Assembly: GCF_000153705.1 (NCBI RefSeq)
Contig: NZ_DS022272.1
Coordinates: forward strand, 1,123,839-1,187,838
Origin: Fulvimarina pelagi HTCC2506
Lineage (GTDB): Bacteria; Pseudomonadota; Alphaproteobacteria; Rhizobiales; Rhizobiaceae
Direction: 5' to 3'
DNA: 64,000 nucleotides
Under the pieces are notes generated by a model, which worked only from the letters and a program-made list of their open reading frames with translations, made no database searches and was not told the DNA's origin. Numbering within the stretch: position 1 is the first letter of the stretch; each line of letters opens with the position of its first letter. This document shows, piece after piece, positions 17,308-53,386 of the stretch. Both the position numbers and the translations under genes were made by a program.

Positions 17308-17370
17308 CTATCGCTATCCGCGAATCCATTGCGATCGACGTGGGGTCCTCCCAACTCCGGGGGAGCCACT

Positions 17371-17416
17371 TCGGTCGCTTTTGGCCGTAACGTTTCGGGC
17401 ATCGAAAAGCGGCCGA
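17371..17416 (+). promoter_or_regulatory. Leader hairpin of the alpha operon
   Basis: TCGGTCGCTTTT at 17371-17382 pairs with AAAAGCGGCCGA at 17405-17416 (twelve pairs, one G-T) around a 22-nt loop. It ends 15 nt before the AGGAG ribosome binding site of rpsM. In E. coli this leader is the S4 target, but rpsD is not in this operon here, so a different ligand may act. Confidence 0.5.
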
Positions 17417-17442
17417 CAACCATCAAGTTTAGGAGTGACGAC

Positions 17443-17811
17443 GTGGCACGTATCGCTGGCGTCAATATCCCGACGGGCAAACGCGCGGTTATCGCGCTAC
17501 AGTACATTCACGGGATCGGACCGTCTCTCGCCAAGCAGATCATGGCGAAGGCAAACCTTACCGAAGACCGCCGGGTCAACGATCTTTCGGACGCAGAAGT
17601 GCTGCAGATCCGGGAAATCATCGACCGTGAACATCAGGTTGAGGGCGATCTTCGCCGCGAGACCTCGATGAATATCAAGCGCCTCATGGACCTCGGCTGC
17701 TATCGTGGCCTGCGTCATCGCCGGTCGCTGCCCGTACGCGGTCAGCGCACGCACACCAATGCACGCACCCGCAAGGGTCCGGCCAAGGCGATCGCCGGCA
17801 AGAAGAAGTAA
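17443..17811 (+). CDS. rpsM: 30S ribosomal protein S13
   Basis: S13 sits in the 30S head and bridges to the 50S subunit and tRNA. The GTG at 17443 ([20 protein letters not shown]), preceded by AGGAG at 17431-17435, gives the standard 122 residues; the upstream frame is the leader. The tail [21 protein letters not shown] contacts P-site tRNA. Confidence 0.96.
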
Positions 17812-38370: not shown

Positions 38371-38399
38371 TTGCCGATCCGAATGAGCTCGGCTATCGA
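38371..38399 (+). promoter_or_regulatory. Promoter of the trp leader
   Basis: TTGCCG at 38371-38376, a 17-nt spacer and TATCGA at 38394-38399 put the transcription start at or next to the A of the trpL ATG at 38406. In rhizobia the trpL message is known to begin at its start codon, so this fits well. Confidence 0.6.
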
Positions 38400-38405
38400 T
38401 ACGCC

Positions 38406-38453
38406 ATGTACACGATCGCGCCCATCATGAAGGTCTGGTGGCGTCCGCTCTAA
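38406..38453 (+). CDS. trpL: trp operon leader peptide
   Basis: The 15-residue frame [15 protein letters not shown] has two adjacent tryptophan codons at 38436-38441 and lies just before an attenuator hairpin and trpE(G). It has no ribosome binding site, which fits a leaderless message. When tryptophan is scarce the ribosome stalls on the Trp codons and the antiterminator forms. In Sinorhizobium the corresponding peptide and attenuated RNA (rnTrpL) also act in trans; whether that holds here is not known. Confidence 0.85.
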
Positions 38454-38454
38454 G

Positions 38455-38519
38455 GCGGCCGATCGACCTCGTGCGGGATCATTGTCGAAGGCTGCTGCGG
38501 AAACGCAAGCGGCCTTTTT
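38455..38519 (+). terminator. trp attenuator
   Basis: The terminator pairs 38488-38499 with 38504-38516 (one bulge, one G-T) around a GAAA tetraloop and runs into TTTTT. The competing antiterminator pairs GCGGCC and CGAC, just after the trpL stop (about 38455-38468), with GTCG and GGCTGC (about 38484-38495). The two structures share bases and exclude each other, as in classical attenuation. Confidence 0.85.
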
Positions 38520-38568: not shown

Positions 38569-40761
38569 ATGGCGACCACGACGACGGATGACGAGCAAAC
38601 CTTCTCGACCGAGGGCGGCGTCGAGATCACGCGGCGCTCGTGTGCGGTTCCTTATGCCGATGCGATCGAACCCTATTTCGACAAGCTCGATACGCGACGC
38701 GGCGCTGTTCTCTTCTCGAATTACGAGTATCCCGGTCGCTACACCAAACAGGACATCGCTTTCGTCGATCCTCCCCTGGTGCTCACTTCGGCGGGACGCC
38801 GCATGGTGATCGAGGCCCTGAACGGCAAAGGCGAAATCCTTCTGTCGATGATTGCCGGAGCCCTGGAGGGTCACGCCGATATCGCCAAGTTCGGGATGTC
38901 TGACGATGGCCGATCGGTTGAGCTAATGATCAAGGAACCGTCGGGCGCGGTCACTGAGGAGGAGCGTTCGCGGATACCGACGGTGTTCTCCGTCCTCCGC
39001 GCGATCGTTGCTCTCTTCAAAACCAGTGAGGACGCGCGCTGCGGGCTCTACGGCGCCTTCGGCTACGACCTCGCCTTCCAGTTCGATCCGATCGAGCAGA
39101 GCCTCGAACGGCCTGCCGACCAGCGCGATCTCGTTCTCTACATGCCGGACGAGGTGCTGGAGGTCGATCACTACTCGGCTTCTGCGGTTCTCTCGACATA
39201 CGACTTCGCCAAGGGCTCGCTGTCGACGGCTTCTGTGAAGGGCGGCGGGAGCGACGACGGTTTCGAGCCGGCGAAGCGAATCCCGGGCCGCGGCGATCAC
39301 GAGCCCGGTGAATATGCCGATCTCGTTCGCTCCGCCAAGGAGCGGTTCCGGCGGGGCGACCTCTTCGAGGTGGTTCCCGGTCAGGTCTTCTATGAGCGGG
39401 CCGAACATAAGCCGTCGGAGATTTCGCGTCGATTGAAAGCGGTAAATCCCTCGCCCTATTCTTTTTTCGTCAACCTCGGCTCGAACGAGTTTCTCGTTGG
39501 CGCCTCGCCAGAAATGTTCGTACGGGTCGCCGGCAAACGCGTAGAGACCTGCCCGATTTCGGGCACCGTTCCGCGCGGTCAGGATGCGATCGGCGACGCC
39601 GAGCAGGTGCTGAAGCTCCTCAACTCCAAGAAGGATGAGTCGGAACTCACCATGTGTTCCGACGTCGACCGAAACGACAAGAGCCGGGTCTGCGATCCCG
39701 GCTCGGTGAAAGTCATTGGCCGACGTCAGATCGAAATGTATTCGCGGCTGATCCACACGGTCGATCACATCACCGGCGTTCTCCGCGACGGGATGGATGC
39801 CTTCGACGCCTTCCTCTCACACGCCTGGGCGGTGACGGTGACCGGCGCGCCGAAGCTCTGGGCGATGCGGTTCATCGAAAAGCACGAGAAGAGCCCACGC
39901 GCCTGGTATGGCGGCGCTGTCGGCATGGTGCATTTCAATGGGGACCTGAACACCGGGCTAACGTTGCGTACGATCCGTCTCAAGGACGGAATTGCCGAAG
40001 TGCGCGCCGGCGCGACGCTGCTCTTCGATTCAGATCCGGACGCCGAAGAGGCTGAGACGGAGCTGAAGGCCTCGGCATTGCTCGGCGCGATCCGCGAGGC
40101 CGGTATGGCCAATGAGGGCGCGGCGAAGCTCGCGGCGGCGAAGGTAGGAGAGGGATTGACGATCCTCCTCGTCGATCACGAAGACTCTTTCGTTCATACG
40201 CTCGCGAATTACTTCCGGCAGACGGGGGCAGAAGTTTCGACGGTTCGCACACCGGTGCCGCAGGAGATCTTCGACCGCATCAATCCCGATCTCGTCGTTC
40301 TCTCGCCCGGTCCAGGAACGCCCTCGGACTTCGATTGTGCCGCGACGATCAGGCGGGCCCGAGAACATGGCTCGGCGGTCTTTGGTGTCTGCCTCGGACT
40401 TCAGGCGCTGGCGGAAGCCTATGGAGGCGAGCTCAGAACCCTTCACATTCCCTATCACGGCAAGCCATCGCGCATCCGTATCTCGAAGCCGGGGATCGTC
40501 TTCTCCGGACTGCCAGATGAGGTCACGATCGGACGCTATCACTCGATCTTTGCCGATCCGGTCCGGTTGCCGCGTGACTTCGAGGTTACGGCTGAGAGCG
40601 AGGACGGCATCGTGATGGCCTTCGAGCATCGCTCCGAGCCAGTCGCCGCGGTACAGTTCCATCCCGAGAGCATTATGAGCCTCGGCGGCGAGGCGGGACT
40701 GCGGATGATCGAGAACGTCGTTGCCCATCTTCCGCGCCGTGCGAAGGAGCGGGCCGCCTAG
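38569..40761 (+). CDS. trpE: Anthranilate synthase, fused TrpE-TrpG
   Basis: This bifunctional enzyme of 730 residues makes anthranilate from chorismate and glutamine. The TrpE part has [36 protein letters not shown] and [11 protein letters not shown]. The TrpG amidotransferase part (about residues 525-730) has [11 protein letters not shown], the catalytic Cys in [10 protein letters not shown] and the His-Glu pair in [10 protein letters not shown] start at the ATG at 38569; the frame open from 38482 is the attenuator. The trpE(G) fusion is typical of rhizobia, where it is controlled apart from the other trp genes. A metal exporter gene follows after 2 nt. Confidence 0.97.
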
Positions 40762-47718: not shown

Positions 47719-48231
47719 ATGACGGATAAAAACGCTACCGATATTGATTGGGAGAGGCTGAACGAGAGCGTCGTAACGCGTCTGCATCTCGATGATGCTC
47801 TTTGCTTTGCGCTCTACAACGCGACGAATGCGATCATTCGGGCCTACAGGCCGCTTTTACACAAAATAAATCTGACCTACCCGCAATATCTTGTCATGAT
47901 GGCGCTTTGGGACGAAGGCGCCATGCGAATCGTCGACGTCGCCCGGCGCCTCGATCTCGCGCCCAACGCGATTACGCCGCTGGTGGACCGGCTCGAGAAG
48001 ATCGAACTTGTCTCGCGAGTGCCGTCCGAAACGGATCGGCGCACGTCGATGATTCATCTGACCGATCGTGGCGCCGAACTGGAGAAGGAGGCCTCGATCA
48101 TTCAGCAGGCCATCTCCTGCAATATTGCGTTGGATTCCGATCGCCACGGTCCGCTGTTGCACGACCTCAAGCGGATCGTCGCCGGAATGGAGCAGGGCGA
48201 TCTTCTGAGGGGGCGCGAAAAAAAGGATTAA
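47719..48231 (+). CDS. MarR family regulator, OhrR-like
   Basis: The 170-residue winged-helix protein has the OhrR pattern around the reactive cysteine (Cys29 in DDALCFALYNATNAI), YRPLLHKINLTYPQYLVMMALWDEG and the wing ETDRRTSMIHLTDRG. OhrR proteins sense organic peroxides by oxidising this cysteine and usually control the ohr peroxidase. No ohr gene is next to it. A palindromic site in its own promoter suggests autorepression. Remains of a haemoglobin gene follow. Confidence 0.88.
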   Translation: MTDKNATDIDWERLNESVVTRLHLDDALCFALYNATNAIIRAYRPLLHKINLTYPQYLVMMALWDEGAMRIVDVARRLDLAPNAITPLVDRLEKIELVSRVPSETDRRTSMIHLTDRGAELEKEASIIQQAISCNIALDSDRHGPLLHDLKRIVAGMEQGDLLRGREKKD

Positions 48232-48683: not shown

Positions 48684-50165
48684 ATGCAGAATACTGGTAG
48701 GGCGGTCGTAGCCAAGGCGAACAGGCGTGGACTCGTTTGGCTCGCGCCGATGGTCCTTATCTCCGTGGCTTTGGCATTCGGAAGTCTAAAAACAGCGGCC
48801 GCCCAGTCGAGCGATGGAGGTGGAGGGGGCTCAAGCACCGAAGAACAGTCCTCTACGCTCGATCTGCCGTTGATCGGAGAGGTAGAGCTTCCCGACTGGC
48901 TGGCCTTTATCGGTTCTTCCTCTTCCGAACAGTCCGAAGGCTCGACATCGGGCAGTGGCCGTGCAGCCGGACAGGGCGGCCCCGGCGGAGGTCAGCAGCA
49001 GCCTCCGGCTGTCGTGGTGACCCGCGCCGAGATCCAGTCCGTGGGCGACGAGTTCGAATTCATCGGCCGGATCGAAGCGATCGAAAACGTGACTCTCCAG
49101 GCCCGCGTCAACGGCTTTATCGAAGAGGTCTTCTTCGAAGGCGGGGACCAGGTTTCGATCGGCGACCGGTTGTTCAAGATCGAGGACGACCAGTATCAGG
49201 CCTCCCTCGATTCGGCGGAAGCGCAGCTTGCCGGCGCTGACGCGCAGCTCGCGGAGGCACAGCGGGCGCTCCAGCGGGCAGAGGAACTCATCGACTCAGG
49301 CACGATCCCCCAGGCCGAACTCGACAATGCCCGCGCCACCTTCGAATCGGCGCAGGCTTCGCGCCTGCAGGCACAGGCAGATGTTCGTCAGGCTCAACTT
49401 AATCTCGACTACACCTCGATCGAGGCGCCGATCGACGGCGTGATCTCCGAGCCGATGATCACCAAGGGCAATTTCGTGTCAGCGGCCAGCGGGACACTCG
49501 CCAATATCGTGCAACTCGATCCCATCTGGGGGACCTTCCCGATCGGCGAGGAGCGTATCTCGACGCTGCGCCGTGTCGGGGGCGGTGACGGCGATGCGGC
49601 TGCATCGGCGGAAAACTATCGCCTTACCCTGCGCCTGCCGAGCGACGAGCAGCTGCAGGGCGATGGAACCTTCGCCTTCGTCGGCAACATGGTCGATGAA
49701 TCGACCGGCACGATCGAGGTGCGCGTCCAGTTTCCCAATCCGGACGGACGGCTTCTGCCCAACGAGAACGTCACTTTGATCGCGACGGAACGAGAACCGC
49801 CGCAGCTCCCAGTGATTCCCATGACCGCATTACAGCTCAGCCGCGAAGGGCGTTTCGTCTATCTTCTCGATGATGAGAACGACATGGTGCGCCAGCAGCC
49901 AGTGCAGATTGGCAAGCAGATGCGCGGCGCGGCCGCGATTACGAGCGGCGTCGAGGCAGGTGACCTCGTCGTGGTGCAGGGCGTGCAGAACCTTCAGGAC
50001 GGAGCGCAGGTCACACCGAATTTCGAGGCGGGATCGTCCGGCTCGGGTGGATCGGCCGCCGGTGGCGCTCAGGAATCAGCGTCGAAAAACGGAGATGGTG
50101 GGGGCCAGACCGAAAGCGCCTCCGCGTCGAACGGTTCAGGTGCGCAGGCGGATAGCGGCGAATGA
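48684..50165 (+). CDS. RND efflux periplasmic adaptor subunit
   Basis: This 493-residue membrane fusion protein links the inner-membrane pump to an outer-membrane channel. It has an N-terminal membrane/signal segment (about 18-40), a lipoyl-like domain with TLQARVNGFIEEVFFEGGDQV, a coiled-coil hairpin (about 175-240) and the beta-barrel part. About 65 residues of Gly/Ser/Glu-rich sequence separate the signal segment from the lipoyl domain, and about 45 Gly/Ser-rich residues form the C-terminus; neither is usual for AcrA. It overlaps the pump gene by four bases (ATGA). Confidence 0.9.
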   Translation: MQNTGRAVVAKANRRGLVWLAPMVLISVALAFGSLKTAAAQSSDGGGGGSSTEEQSSTLDLPLIGEVELPDWLAFIGSSSSEQSEGSTSGSGRAAGQGGPGGGQQQPPAVVVTRAEIQSVGDEFEFIGRIEAIENVTLQARVNGFIEEVFFEGGDQVSIGDRLFKIEDDQYQASLDSAEAQLAGADAQLAEAQRALQRAEELIDSGTIPQAELDNARATFESAQASRLQAQADVRQAQLNLDYTSIEAPIDGVISEPMITKGNFVSAASGTLANIVQLDPIWGTFPIGEERISTLRRVGGGDGDAAASAENYRLTLRLPSDEQLQGDGTFAFVGNMVDESTGTIEVRVQFPNPDGRLLPNENVTLIATEREPPQLPVIPMTALQLSREGRFVYLLDDENDMVRQQPVQIGKQMRGAAAITSGVEAGDLVVVQGVQNLQDGAQVTPNFEAGSSGSGGSAAGGAQESASKNGDGGGQTESASASNGSGAQADSGE

Positions 50166-53100
50166 TTTCCGACACCTTCATCCGCCGTCCTCGCCTAGCG
50201 ACGGTCGTCTCCGTCGTCCTGGTGATCGCAGGCGCTCTTTCCACCTTCGTGATGCCGGTGACGCAGTTTCCGAACGTCGCGCCGCCGACGGTCAGCGTGT
50301 CGGCGAGCTATCCCGGCGCGTCGGCCCAGACGGTGGCAGACGCGATCGCAGCGCCCCTGGAGGAGGCGATCAACGGCGTCGAGAACATGATCTACATGTC
50401 CTCGACCTCTACGAATGCTGGACAGTATAATCTCTCGATCACCTTCGAGATCGGGACCGACCCCGACATCGCACAGGTCAATGTCTCGAACCGCGTTCAG
50501 CTCGCGACCTCGCAGCTGCCTACAGATGTCGCACGTCAGGGTGTGACGGTGCAGGCGCAATCGCCAAATTTCCTCCTGGCGATGAGCTTCTACTCGGCCA
50601 ATCCCGAAACGCTGGGCCCGATCGACGTCGGCGCCTATGTCTCGACCAACATCACACCCGCGCTTTCTCGCGTGGAAGGCGTCGGTAACGCTGCGCCCCT
50701 GGGGCCCGCCGACTACGCCATGCGGATCTGGACAGATCCGGACAAGATGGCAGCGTTCAATATAGCTCCGTCCGACATCACGGCCGCGATTGAGGCTGCG
50801 AATACCGTCGCTTCAGTCGGCATCATCGGCGGATCGCCCGCGCCAGAGGGACAGGCGACCGTCTACACCGTGACATCGCAGGGTCGGCTCTCCGATGCCG
50901 AAGATTTCGACGATATCGTCATTCGCGCTCAACCGAACGGGGCGTTGGTTCGAGTGCGAGACGTCGCGCGGGTCGAACTCGGGGCACAGAACTATTCGGT
51001 GAATTCCTATTCGGCCGAGGGCCTTCCGTCGCAGCTCGTCCAGGTGAACCAGGCGCCCGGCGCGAATGCTCTGGCCACGGTCGCAGCGGTAGAGCAGGAG
51101 CTCGATCGGCTATCCGCCTCGTTTCCCGAGGGCCTCGAATACGACATCGTCTACAATTCCACCGAATATGTCAGCGCGACGATCGAGGAGATCATCTTCT
51201 CGCTGTTCCTCGTCGCGGCGATCGTCGTCGTTGTGGTCTACGTTTTCCTGCAGGACTGGCGTGCGACACTGGTGCCGGCGCTGGCTATCCCGGTCTCTCT
51301 CGTCGGTACGTTTGCCTTTCTCCTGGCCGCGGGCTTCACCGTCAACGTCATCACGCTGCTCGCACTGATCCTTGCAATCGGTCTCGTCGTCGACGACGCC
51401 ATTCTGGTCGTCGAGAACTGCCAGCGCGTGATGGTGCAGGAAGGGCTCGAGGCGAAGGAGGCCGCGCACAAGGCAATGCGCGAGGTCACGGGACCCATCA
51501 TCTCGACCACGCTCGTTCTCCTCGCCGTCTTTCTTCCGACGACCTTCCTGCCGGGATTGTCCGGTCAGCTTTACAAACAGTTCGGCGTGACGCTCTCGAT
51601 CTCTCTTCTGCTCTCCTCGCTCGTCGCCCTGACGCTGACGCCGGCGCTGGCGGCGATTTTTCTGCGTCCGCCGCGCCGGAGCTGGGCGCCCTTGCGCCTC
51701 TTTTCGCGAGGGCTGGAAGGTGTGACGACGTTCTACGCCGGTGTCGTCGGTTTTCTCGTCAAACGCGTCCTCGTCGCTCTTATGATCCTCGCCAGCGCAG
51801 TCGGCCTTGCCGCCTTCTCCTTCCTCAGCCTTCCCAGCGCTCTCATCCCGACAGAAGACCAGGGCGCCATTCTCTTCGACGTCTCTCTTCCGGATGCTTC
51901 TTCTCTCCAGCGGACCGACGAAGTGCTCGATCAGGTCTCGGAGATCATCCGCAACACCGAAGGAGTCGAGACCTTCACGACGGCGGCCGGCTACAGCCTC
52001 CTGCAATCGGCGCAAAGGCCGGCAGGCGGCGTCGGTATCATCGGTCTAAAGCTCTGGGGTGAACGTCGCGACCTCTTCACGATCCTCGGGGAGCTGTCCG
52101 GCAAGTTCTCGCAAATTCCGGGAGCGACGATCGCCGCGTTCCCGCCGCCGCCGATCCCGGGTGTTGGATCGGTCGGCGGGTTCACGTTCGAGCTTCTGGC
52201 GCAGCAGGGCCAGGAACCGGCCGAAATGGCGCAGGTCGCCCGTGCCTTCGTTGGTGCGGCAAATCAGAGACCGGAGATCGCCGGCGCGCGCACGACGTTC
52301 TCGGCGAATGTGCCGAGTCTCTACTTGGAGATCGATCGCGATCGCGCCGAAACCCTCGGCCTGACCGTCGCTTCGATCTATGAGGCGGTCGGTGGAACGC
52401 TCGGCGAGGTCTTCGTCAACCAATTCAACTACAATGGCCGGGTATTCCAGGTGCGGCTCCAGGCCGAGCCGGAAGCGCGGGCGGACGAAGACGACATCCT
52501 AGACATCTACGCAAAGAACCGCGAGGGCGAGATGGTGCCGATCCGGACCGTCGTTTCTGTGCGCAATGAGTTCGGTCCCTATGCAGTGCCGCGATTCAAC
52601 CTTTATCTTGCGGCCGAAGTCTCCGGTAATCCGGCACCGGGATTCTCGTCCGGTGCCGCACTTCAGGCCTTGGAACAGGTCGCCACCGAGACGCTGCCTG
52701 ACGGCTACGGCTATCAGTTCGCGGGGACCTCCTATCAGGAGCAGCAGGCCGGGAACGTCACCTATCTCGCTTTCACGCTCGCCTTCATCTTCGCCTATCT
52801 CTTCCTCGTCGGGCAGTACGAAAGCTGGCTTCTGCCGCTGGCGGTGATGTTGTCGCTGTTCATCGCGGCGGCGGGCGCGGCGACCTCGCTCTTTCTGTTC
52901 GGCTACACATCGAACATCTACTCCCAGATCGGGATCGTCATGCTGATCGGGCTCGCCTCCAAGAACGCGATCCTGATCGTCGAATTCGCGCGATTCCAGC
53001 AAAATGTAGGCCTGTCGATTACCGAAGCGGCGATCAAGGGCGCGCGTCTCCGCCTGCGCGCCGTGTTGATGACGGCGCTCGCCTTCATCCTCGGCATCGT

Positions 53101-53386
53101 GCCGCTGGCGCTTGCAACAGGGGCTGGTGCGGCCGGCCGCAATGCCATTGGTATCACCGCGATTGGCGGCATGCTGGCGGCGACCTTCATCGGCATCTTC
53201 ATAGTGCCGGCGCTGTACGCACTGGTGCAGCGGGTTTCACAAGGAAAGCCCGGCAAGCTCTGGGGCCGCGAGAGTAGGTATGAAGCGGGATCCGCAGGCT
53301 CGAGCCAAGCCCTCTCGATGCCATGGAACCGTAGGGTGAGGAATACCGAGGATGGCCAGGGCGCCGCACCGCAACCGGCCGAATGA
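50162..53386 (+). CDS. RND multidrug efflux permease (HAE1/AcrB type)
   Basis: The 1074-residue pump has 12 membrane helices and two large periplasmic loops. The proton-relay pair Asp-Asp is present in GLVVDDAILVVEN (TM4), and TM10/TM11 have GLASKNAILIVEFA. Such pumps export hydrophobic compounds by proton antiport as trimers. It starts within the adaptor stop. No TolC-like gene and no TetR or LysR regulator is adjacent, so the outer-membrane partner is elsewhere. Confidence 0.95.
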   Translation: MISDTFIRRPRLATVVSVVLVIAGALSTFVMPVTQFPNVAPPTVSVSASYPGASAQTVADAIAAPLEEAINGVENMIYMSSTSTNAGQYNLSITFEIGTDPDIAQVNVSNRVQLATSQLPTDVARQGVTVQAQSPNFLLAMSFYSANPETLGPIDVGAYVSTNITPALSRVEGVGNAAPLGPADYAMRIWTDPDKMAAFNIAPSDITAAIEAANTVASVGIIGGSPAPEGQATVYTVTSQGRLSDAEDFDDIVIRAQPNGALVRVRDVARVELGAQNYSVNSYSAEGLPSQLVQVNQAPGANALATVAAVEQELDRLSASFPEGLEYDIVYNSTEYVSATIEEIIFSLFLVAAIVVVVVYVFLQDWRATLVPALAIPVSLVGTFAFLLAAGFTVNVITLLALILAIGLVVDDAILVVENCQRVMVQEGLEAKEAAHKAMREVTGPIISTTLVLLAVFLPTTFLPGLSGQLYKQFGVTLSISLLLSSLVALTLTPALAAIFLRPPRRSWAPLRLFSRGLEGVTTFYAGVVGFLVKRVLVALMILASAVGLAAFSFLSLPSALIPTEDQGAILFDVSLPDASSLQRTDEVLDQVSEIIRNTEGVETFTTAAGYSLLQSAQRPAGGVGIIGLKLWGERRDLFTILGELSGKFSQIPGATIAAFPPPPIPGVGSVGGFTFELLAQQGQEPAEMAQVARAFVGAANQRPEIAGARTTFSANVPSLYLEIDRDRAETLGLTVASIYEAVGGTLGEVFVNQFNYNGRVFQVRLQAEPEARADEDDILDIYAKNREGEMVPIRTVVSVRNEFGPYAVPRFNLYLAAEVSGNPAPGFSSGAALQALEQVATETLPDGYGYQFAGTSYQEQQAGNVTYLAFTLAFIFAYLFLVGQYESWLLPLAVMLSLFIAAAGAATSLFLFGYTSNIYSQIGIVMLIGLASKNAILIVEFARFQQNVGLSITEAAIKGARLRLRAVLMTALAFILGIVPLALATGAGAAGRNAIGITAIGGMLAATFIGIFIVPALYALVQRVSQGKPGKLWGRESRYEAGSAGSSQALSMPWNRRVRNTEDGQGAAPQPAE

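Follow-up and report, generated by a model that had tools for sequence, protein, structure and literature searches.

A predicted leaderless, rhizobial-type transcription attenuator upstream of trpE(G) in Fulvimarina pelagi HTCC2506

How is the fused anthranilate synthase gene trpE(G) of Fulvimarina pelagi HTCC2506 regulated, and does the short open reading frame (ORF) in front of it belong to a transcription attenuator of the kind described in Sinorhizobium? The window, i.e., the whole stretch of DNA analysed, comprises 64,000 nucleotides (64 kb), and all features of this locus lie on its forward (+) strand. The gene that would be regulated, trpE(G), occupies 38569-40761 and is assigned by TIGR01815: its product matches this TrpE-clade3 model with 1202.5 bits (cut-off 739.15), aligned over 38569-40758. 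Further upstream, a predicted promoter (38371-38399) consists of a -35 element TTGCCG (38371-38376), a 17-nt spacer and a -10 element TATCGA (38394-38399). Six bases past the -10 element, at the predicted +1, lies the ATG (38406) of trpL, a predicted leaderless leader of 15 codons (38406-38453) that is recognized in the sequence and has a counterpart ORF in 76 trpE(G) loci, its own included. The leader carries two consecutive Trp codons (38436-38441), residue 13 is Arg, and 50 nt separate the end of the attenuator from the trpE(G) ATG (38569).

This arrangement is almost certainly a transcription attenuator of the rhizobial leaderless type, through which ribosomes translating trpL would control trpE(G). 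Read from the sequence, the transcript, the stalling of the ribosome and the response to Trp would be as follows. RNA polymerase would take the A of the trpL ATG as its first nucleotide, and ribosomes would load straight onto the bare 5' end of the RNA. Scarcity of charged tRNA-Trp would make the ribosome stall at the two Trp codons; region 2 (GGCGGCC) would then be exposed and pair with region 3 (GGCUGCU), and polymerase would continue into trpE(G). With ample Trp, the ribosome would reach the stop codon and cover region 2, whereupon region 3 would pair with region 4, transcription would terminate after ~110-114 nt, and an rnTrpL-like RNA would be released.

The predicted pairings agree with this scheme. 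Regions 1 and 2 would form a protector hairpin (38436-38460) in which UGGUGGC, containing the Trp codons, pairs with GCGGCC; RNAalifold recovered it from eight Aurantimonadaceae-type sequences, and it is also present in the consensus of 36 relatives. The predicted antiterminator of regions 2 and 3 (38454-38496) joins GGCGGCC (38454-38460) to GGCUGCU (38490-38496) and UCGAC (38463-38467) to GUCGA (38484-38488), and the predicted intrinsic terminator of regions 3 and 4 (38487-38519) comprises a hairpin at 38487-38517 and a U tract at 38515-38519. Because region 3 is used in both, the 2:3 and 3:4 pairings are mutually exclusive. When the fold was computed for a ribosome sitting on the Trp codons, before synthesis of region 4, the antiterminator formed at -18.8 kcal/mol; when the ribosome was instead positioned on the stop codon, covering region 2, the terminator formed, and its hairpin has an energy of -20.5 kcal/mol. 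The whole leader from 38406 folds at -51.2 kcal/mol (z = -3.01; equally stable shuffles, 0/200).

In the window alone, the 2:3 pairing does not differ significantly at the 5% level from that obtained with a shuffled region 2 (p = 0.13), and what argues for the predicted antiterminator is comparative conservation in relatives. The GCGGCC/GGCCGC pairing cores are conserved across 36 aligned relatives, in which little or no variation is seen in the GCGG of region 2 or in the corresponding core of regions 3 and 4; since this core is invariant, covariation is not demonstrable for 2:3. The outer pairs of the terminator do covary: among the 36 relatives, 20 cells differ on both sides and 97.2% are paired, a level reached by 0/500 shuffles. 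The Agrobacterium-type loci (L018:1320 onward and L066:838 onward) have a leader ORF of 19 codons that extends into region 2; the 2:3 test on post-stop sequence therefore fails there, and the ribosome geometry in these loci must differ slightly.

For a broader comparison, trpE(G) loci were drawn from 41 whole genomes plus genome contigs, and in 76 loci, the Fulvimarina one included, trpE(G) was preceded by an ORF for a leader peptide with consecutive Trp codons. A covariance model was built from 36 alphaproteobacterial attenuators, none of them from Fulvimarina; three loci (L021, L062 and L065) were excluded from its alignment, their terminators having been misassigned by the script. This model scores the window attenuator at 52.6 bits and gives its extent as exactly 38406-38519; the E-value over the 64 kb is 1.5e-14, against 0.31 for the next match. 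In a scan of the whole genome with the same model, the window attenuator was the sole strong match. Two weak matches elsewhere were considered as second attenuators and rejected: the runner-up of the genome scan, with 24.7 bits at G000:C4:2042391, is the terminator of an aconitase-like gene, and that at G000:C4:3188 is a small ORF with a terminator. The nearest named relatives are Jiella, Aurantimonas and Aureimonas, and the other two genomes of the genus have the leaders MNTKTITTKGWWRSL and MNTTLNLAKMWWRAL in an unchanged position before trpE(G).

The promoter region was examined in the same comparative manner. With a promoter matrix built without Fulvimarina, position 38371 ranks top in the 64 kb with 20.8 bits, and the runner-up scores 10.6. 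The arrangement TTGnnn-17-TAnnnn followed by 6-8 nt to the ATG occurs in 73 of the 76 trpL-trpE(G) loci, and a Shine-Dalgarno-like 4-mer in only three of 73 trpL loci (3/73); because of this shared spacing and the rarity of such 4-mers, a leaderless start is the rule before trpE(G). Judging from the sequence, transcription at the Fulvimarina locus probably starts at the trpL ATG, and the S. meliloti counterpart has been demonstrated by experiment to be leaderless and translated (PMC10117765; PMC7298713). The original prediction of a rhizobial-type trp attenuator with a leaderless 15-residue peptide is borne out by these analyses, all of its elements lying where it had placed them: the predicted promoter has its +1 at the ATG, the two Trp codons are followed by mutually exclusive antiterminator and terminator hairpins before trpE(G), and the anticipated short terminated RNA of about 115 nt agrees with the predicted size of ~110-114 nt.

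The attenuator is an ordinary one, in that the same leaderless kind has long been known in Sinorhizobium and stands upstream of trpE(G) in dozens of relatives. It resembles the S. meliloti trpE(G) attenuator (trpL, rnTrpL/RcsR1, peTrpL) in its downstream gene, in the position of trpL at +1, in its consecutive Trp codons and in a GCGGCC region 2 that competes with region 4 for region 3; the Ensifer locus L076 has a promoter of the same form, TTGC-17-TA. It differs in its peptide, which is 14 residues long with three Trp in S. meliloti and 15 residues long with two in Fulvimarina. Like the E. coli trpL attenuator, it would rely on stalling at Trp codons to choose between alternative hairpins. 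However, trp transcription in E. coli is also repressed (PMC7298713), whereas in Fulvimarina no TrpR was detected in the genome and trpL is predicted to be leaderless. The absence of a detected TrpR fits published S. meliloti work, in which trpLE(G) is controlled without transcriptional repression (PMC7298713). The Rfam Trp leader model gave no match to the region at E<=5.

The presence of two Trp codons and a strongly divergent peptide had been taken as a hint that this locus is special, a view that the comparative data do not sustain. Among the 76 loci, three consecutive Trp codons are found in 62, two in 12 and four in 2. Mapped on a trpE(G) tree made with a quick method, the two-Trp state requires 9 changes, of which well-supported branches enforce at least 7; the three genomes of the genus all have this state. 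The N-terminal half of the peptide showed no conservation across the order. In Bradyrhizobium japonicum, Bja-peTrpL (MSTAVAPARLWWRTS) is likewise 15 residues long (PMC7298713); compared as a peptide, it shares with the Fulvimarina leader its length and two Trp followed by Arg (WWR), and differs in the remainder. Because the two-Trp state is recurrent on the tree and Bja-peTrpL has the same length and WWR motif, two Trp codons represent a common variant. Bja-peTrpL and Atu-peTrpL are active in their own hosts, although nothing beyond the Trp run is conserved (PMC7298713); since they work despite their unlike sequences, a divergent peptide speaks neither for nor against a trans role. The original interpretation is thus upheld only in part. 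Two features do make a simple carry-over of the resistance role from S. meliloti less probable, namely the residue at one position and the layout of the efflux genes.

Two trans activities are described in S. meliloti: trpDC is a target of the terminated RNA, and smeR is lowered by the peptide together with an antimicrobial compound (PMC7298713; PMC7143759). It is possible, but on balance unlikely, that the Fulvimarina attenuator also yields such trans products, with an RNA that represses trpDC and a peptide that, with an antimicrobial, lowers an efflux-pump repressor. This reading is favored by the peptide role reported in Agrobacterium and Bradyrhizobium too, which is conserved despite unrelated peptides, one of them of 15 aa with WWR (PMC7298713; PMC7143759), and by a separate trpDC-moaC cluster elsewhere in the genome. 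On the other hand, in a crude comparison across five genomes that takes no account of accessibility, the energies of leader RNA:trpDC duplexes were near the control range and no site was shared; the best duplex fell slightly below the lowest control in two genomes (G000 and G024) and not in the other three, and the sites differed. Moreover, the TetR gene adjacent to the best acrAB-like pump lies upstream in divergent orientation and is not co-transcribed downstream as in smeABR. This divergent layout recurs in all five Aurantimonadaceae-type genomes examined (G000, G001, G002, G022 and G024; read from coordinates in the last four) for an acrAB-like pump whose orthology to SmeAB is putative. 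The third Trp of the S. meliloti peptide, W12, is essential, W12A being inactive, and the corresponding position is Arg here. Taken together, the Arg at the W12 position and the divergent TetR lower the likelihood of a resistance role like that in S. meliloti. More speculatively, and with a low probability, the genus may have kept the cis role while its peptide, in which Arg replaces the third Trp, ceased to act in trans on a smeR-type repressor, whose gene here does not belong to the pump operon, or acquired a different target; recurrent changes from WWW to WW across the order could then mark such switches.

The locus might instead be read as a standalone RcsR1-like small RNA gene and not an attenuator, given that Rfam RcsR1 is the best-matching family over the 401 bases searched here (E = 0.0015). 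This is highly improbable: RcsR1 and rnTrpL are reported to be transcribed from one position in S. meliloti (PMC7143759), and the trpL leader of Ensifer itself scores 98.1 bits with RF02552. Because of this common start and this match, RcsR1 and the trpL attenuator are two names for one thing, and the RF02552 model covers the Ensifer version of the leader. RF02552 aligns over its full length at 38425-38519, but with only 26.9 bits, below the gathering threshold of 60, so the window attenuator is not filed under that family. The predicted terminated RNA (38406-38519), delimited by the covariance model and matched by Rfam RcsR1, is described as rnTrpL/RcsR1-like. Least probable of all, to the point of being negligible, is that a terminator-like hairpin and a short WW ORF precede trpE(G) by chance, since, although generic sigma-70 promoter and terminator scans made no call at the trpL attenuator and short WW ORFs do arise randomly, such an origin is ruled out by the comparative data, i.e., a position and form conserved in 76 loci, the covariance-model E-value and the promoter-matrix score.

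With the attenuator as the preferred reading, a well-studied leaderless regulatory element would now be extended to one more lineage, and placement of +1 at the ATG is a nearly universal design before trpE(G) among the relatives examined. Changes in Trp-codon number and the absence of the known pump-repressor layout can be located with the comparative set, which helps in choosing species in which to test the reach of the trans roles.

Several additional observations were made during the analysis. Within the window, ~8 kb downstream of trpE(G), an RND efflux pair of an adaptor and an HAE1-type pump lies at 48684-53386; the pump scores 1065.5 bits to TIGR00915, a MarR-like ORF (47719-48231) precedes the pair, and a TetR gene is absent beside it. 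A smeABR-like layout is found at G011:C7:84522-87853, where a TetR domain is encoded immediately after an HAE1 pump, in the same orientation, unlike in the Aurantimonadaceae-type genomes. Finally, the Rfam family Alpha_RBS (RF00140) matches the window at 17368-17475 with 41.7 bits against a gathering threshold of 38, immediately 5' of an rpsM-like gene of the alpha ribosomal operon, as an ordinary autoregulatory leader.
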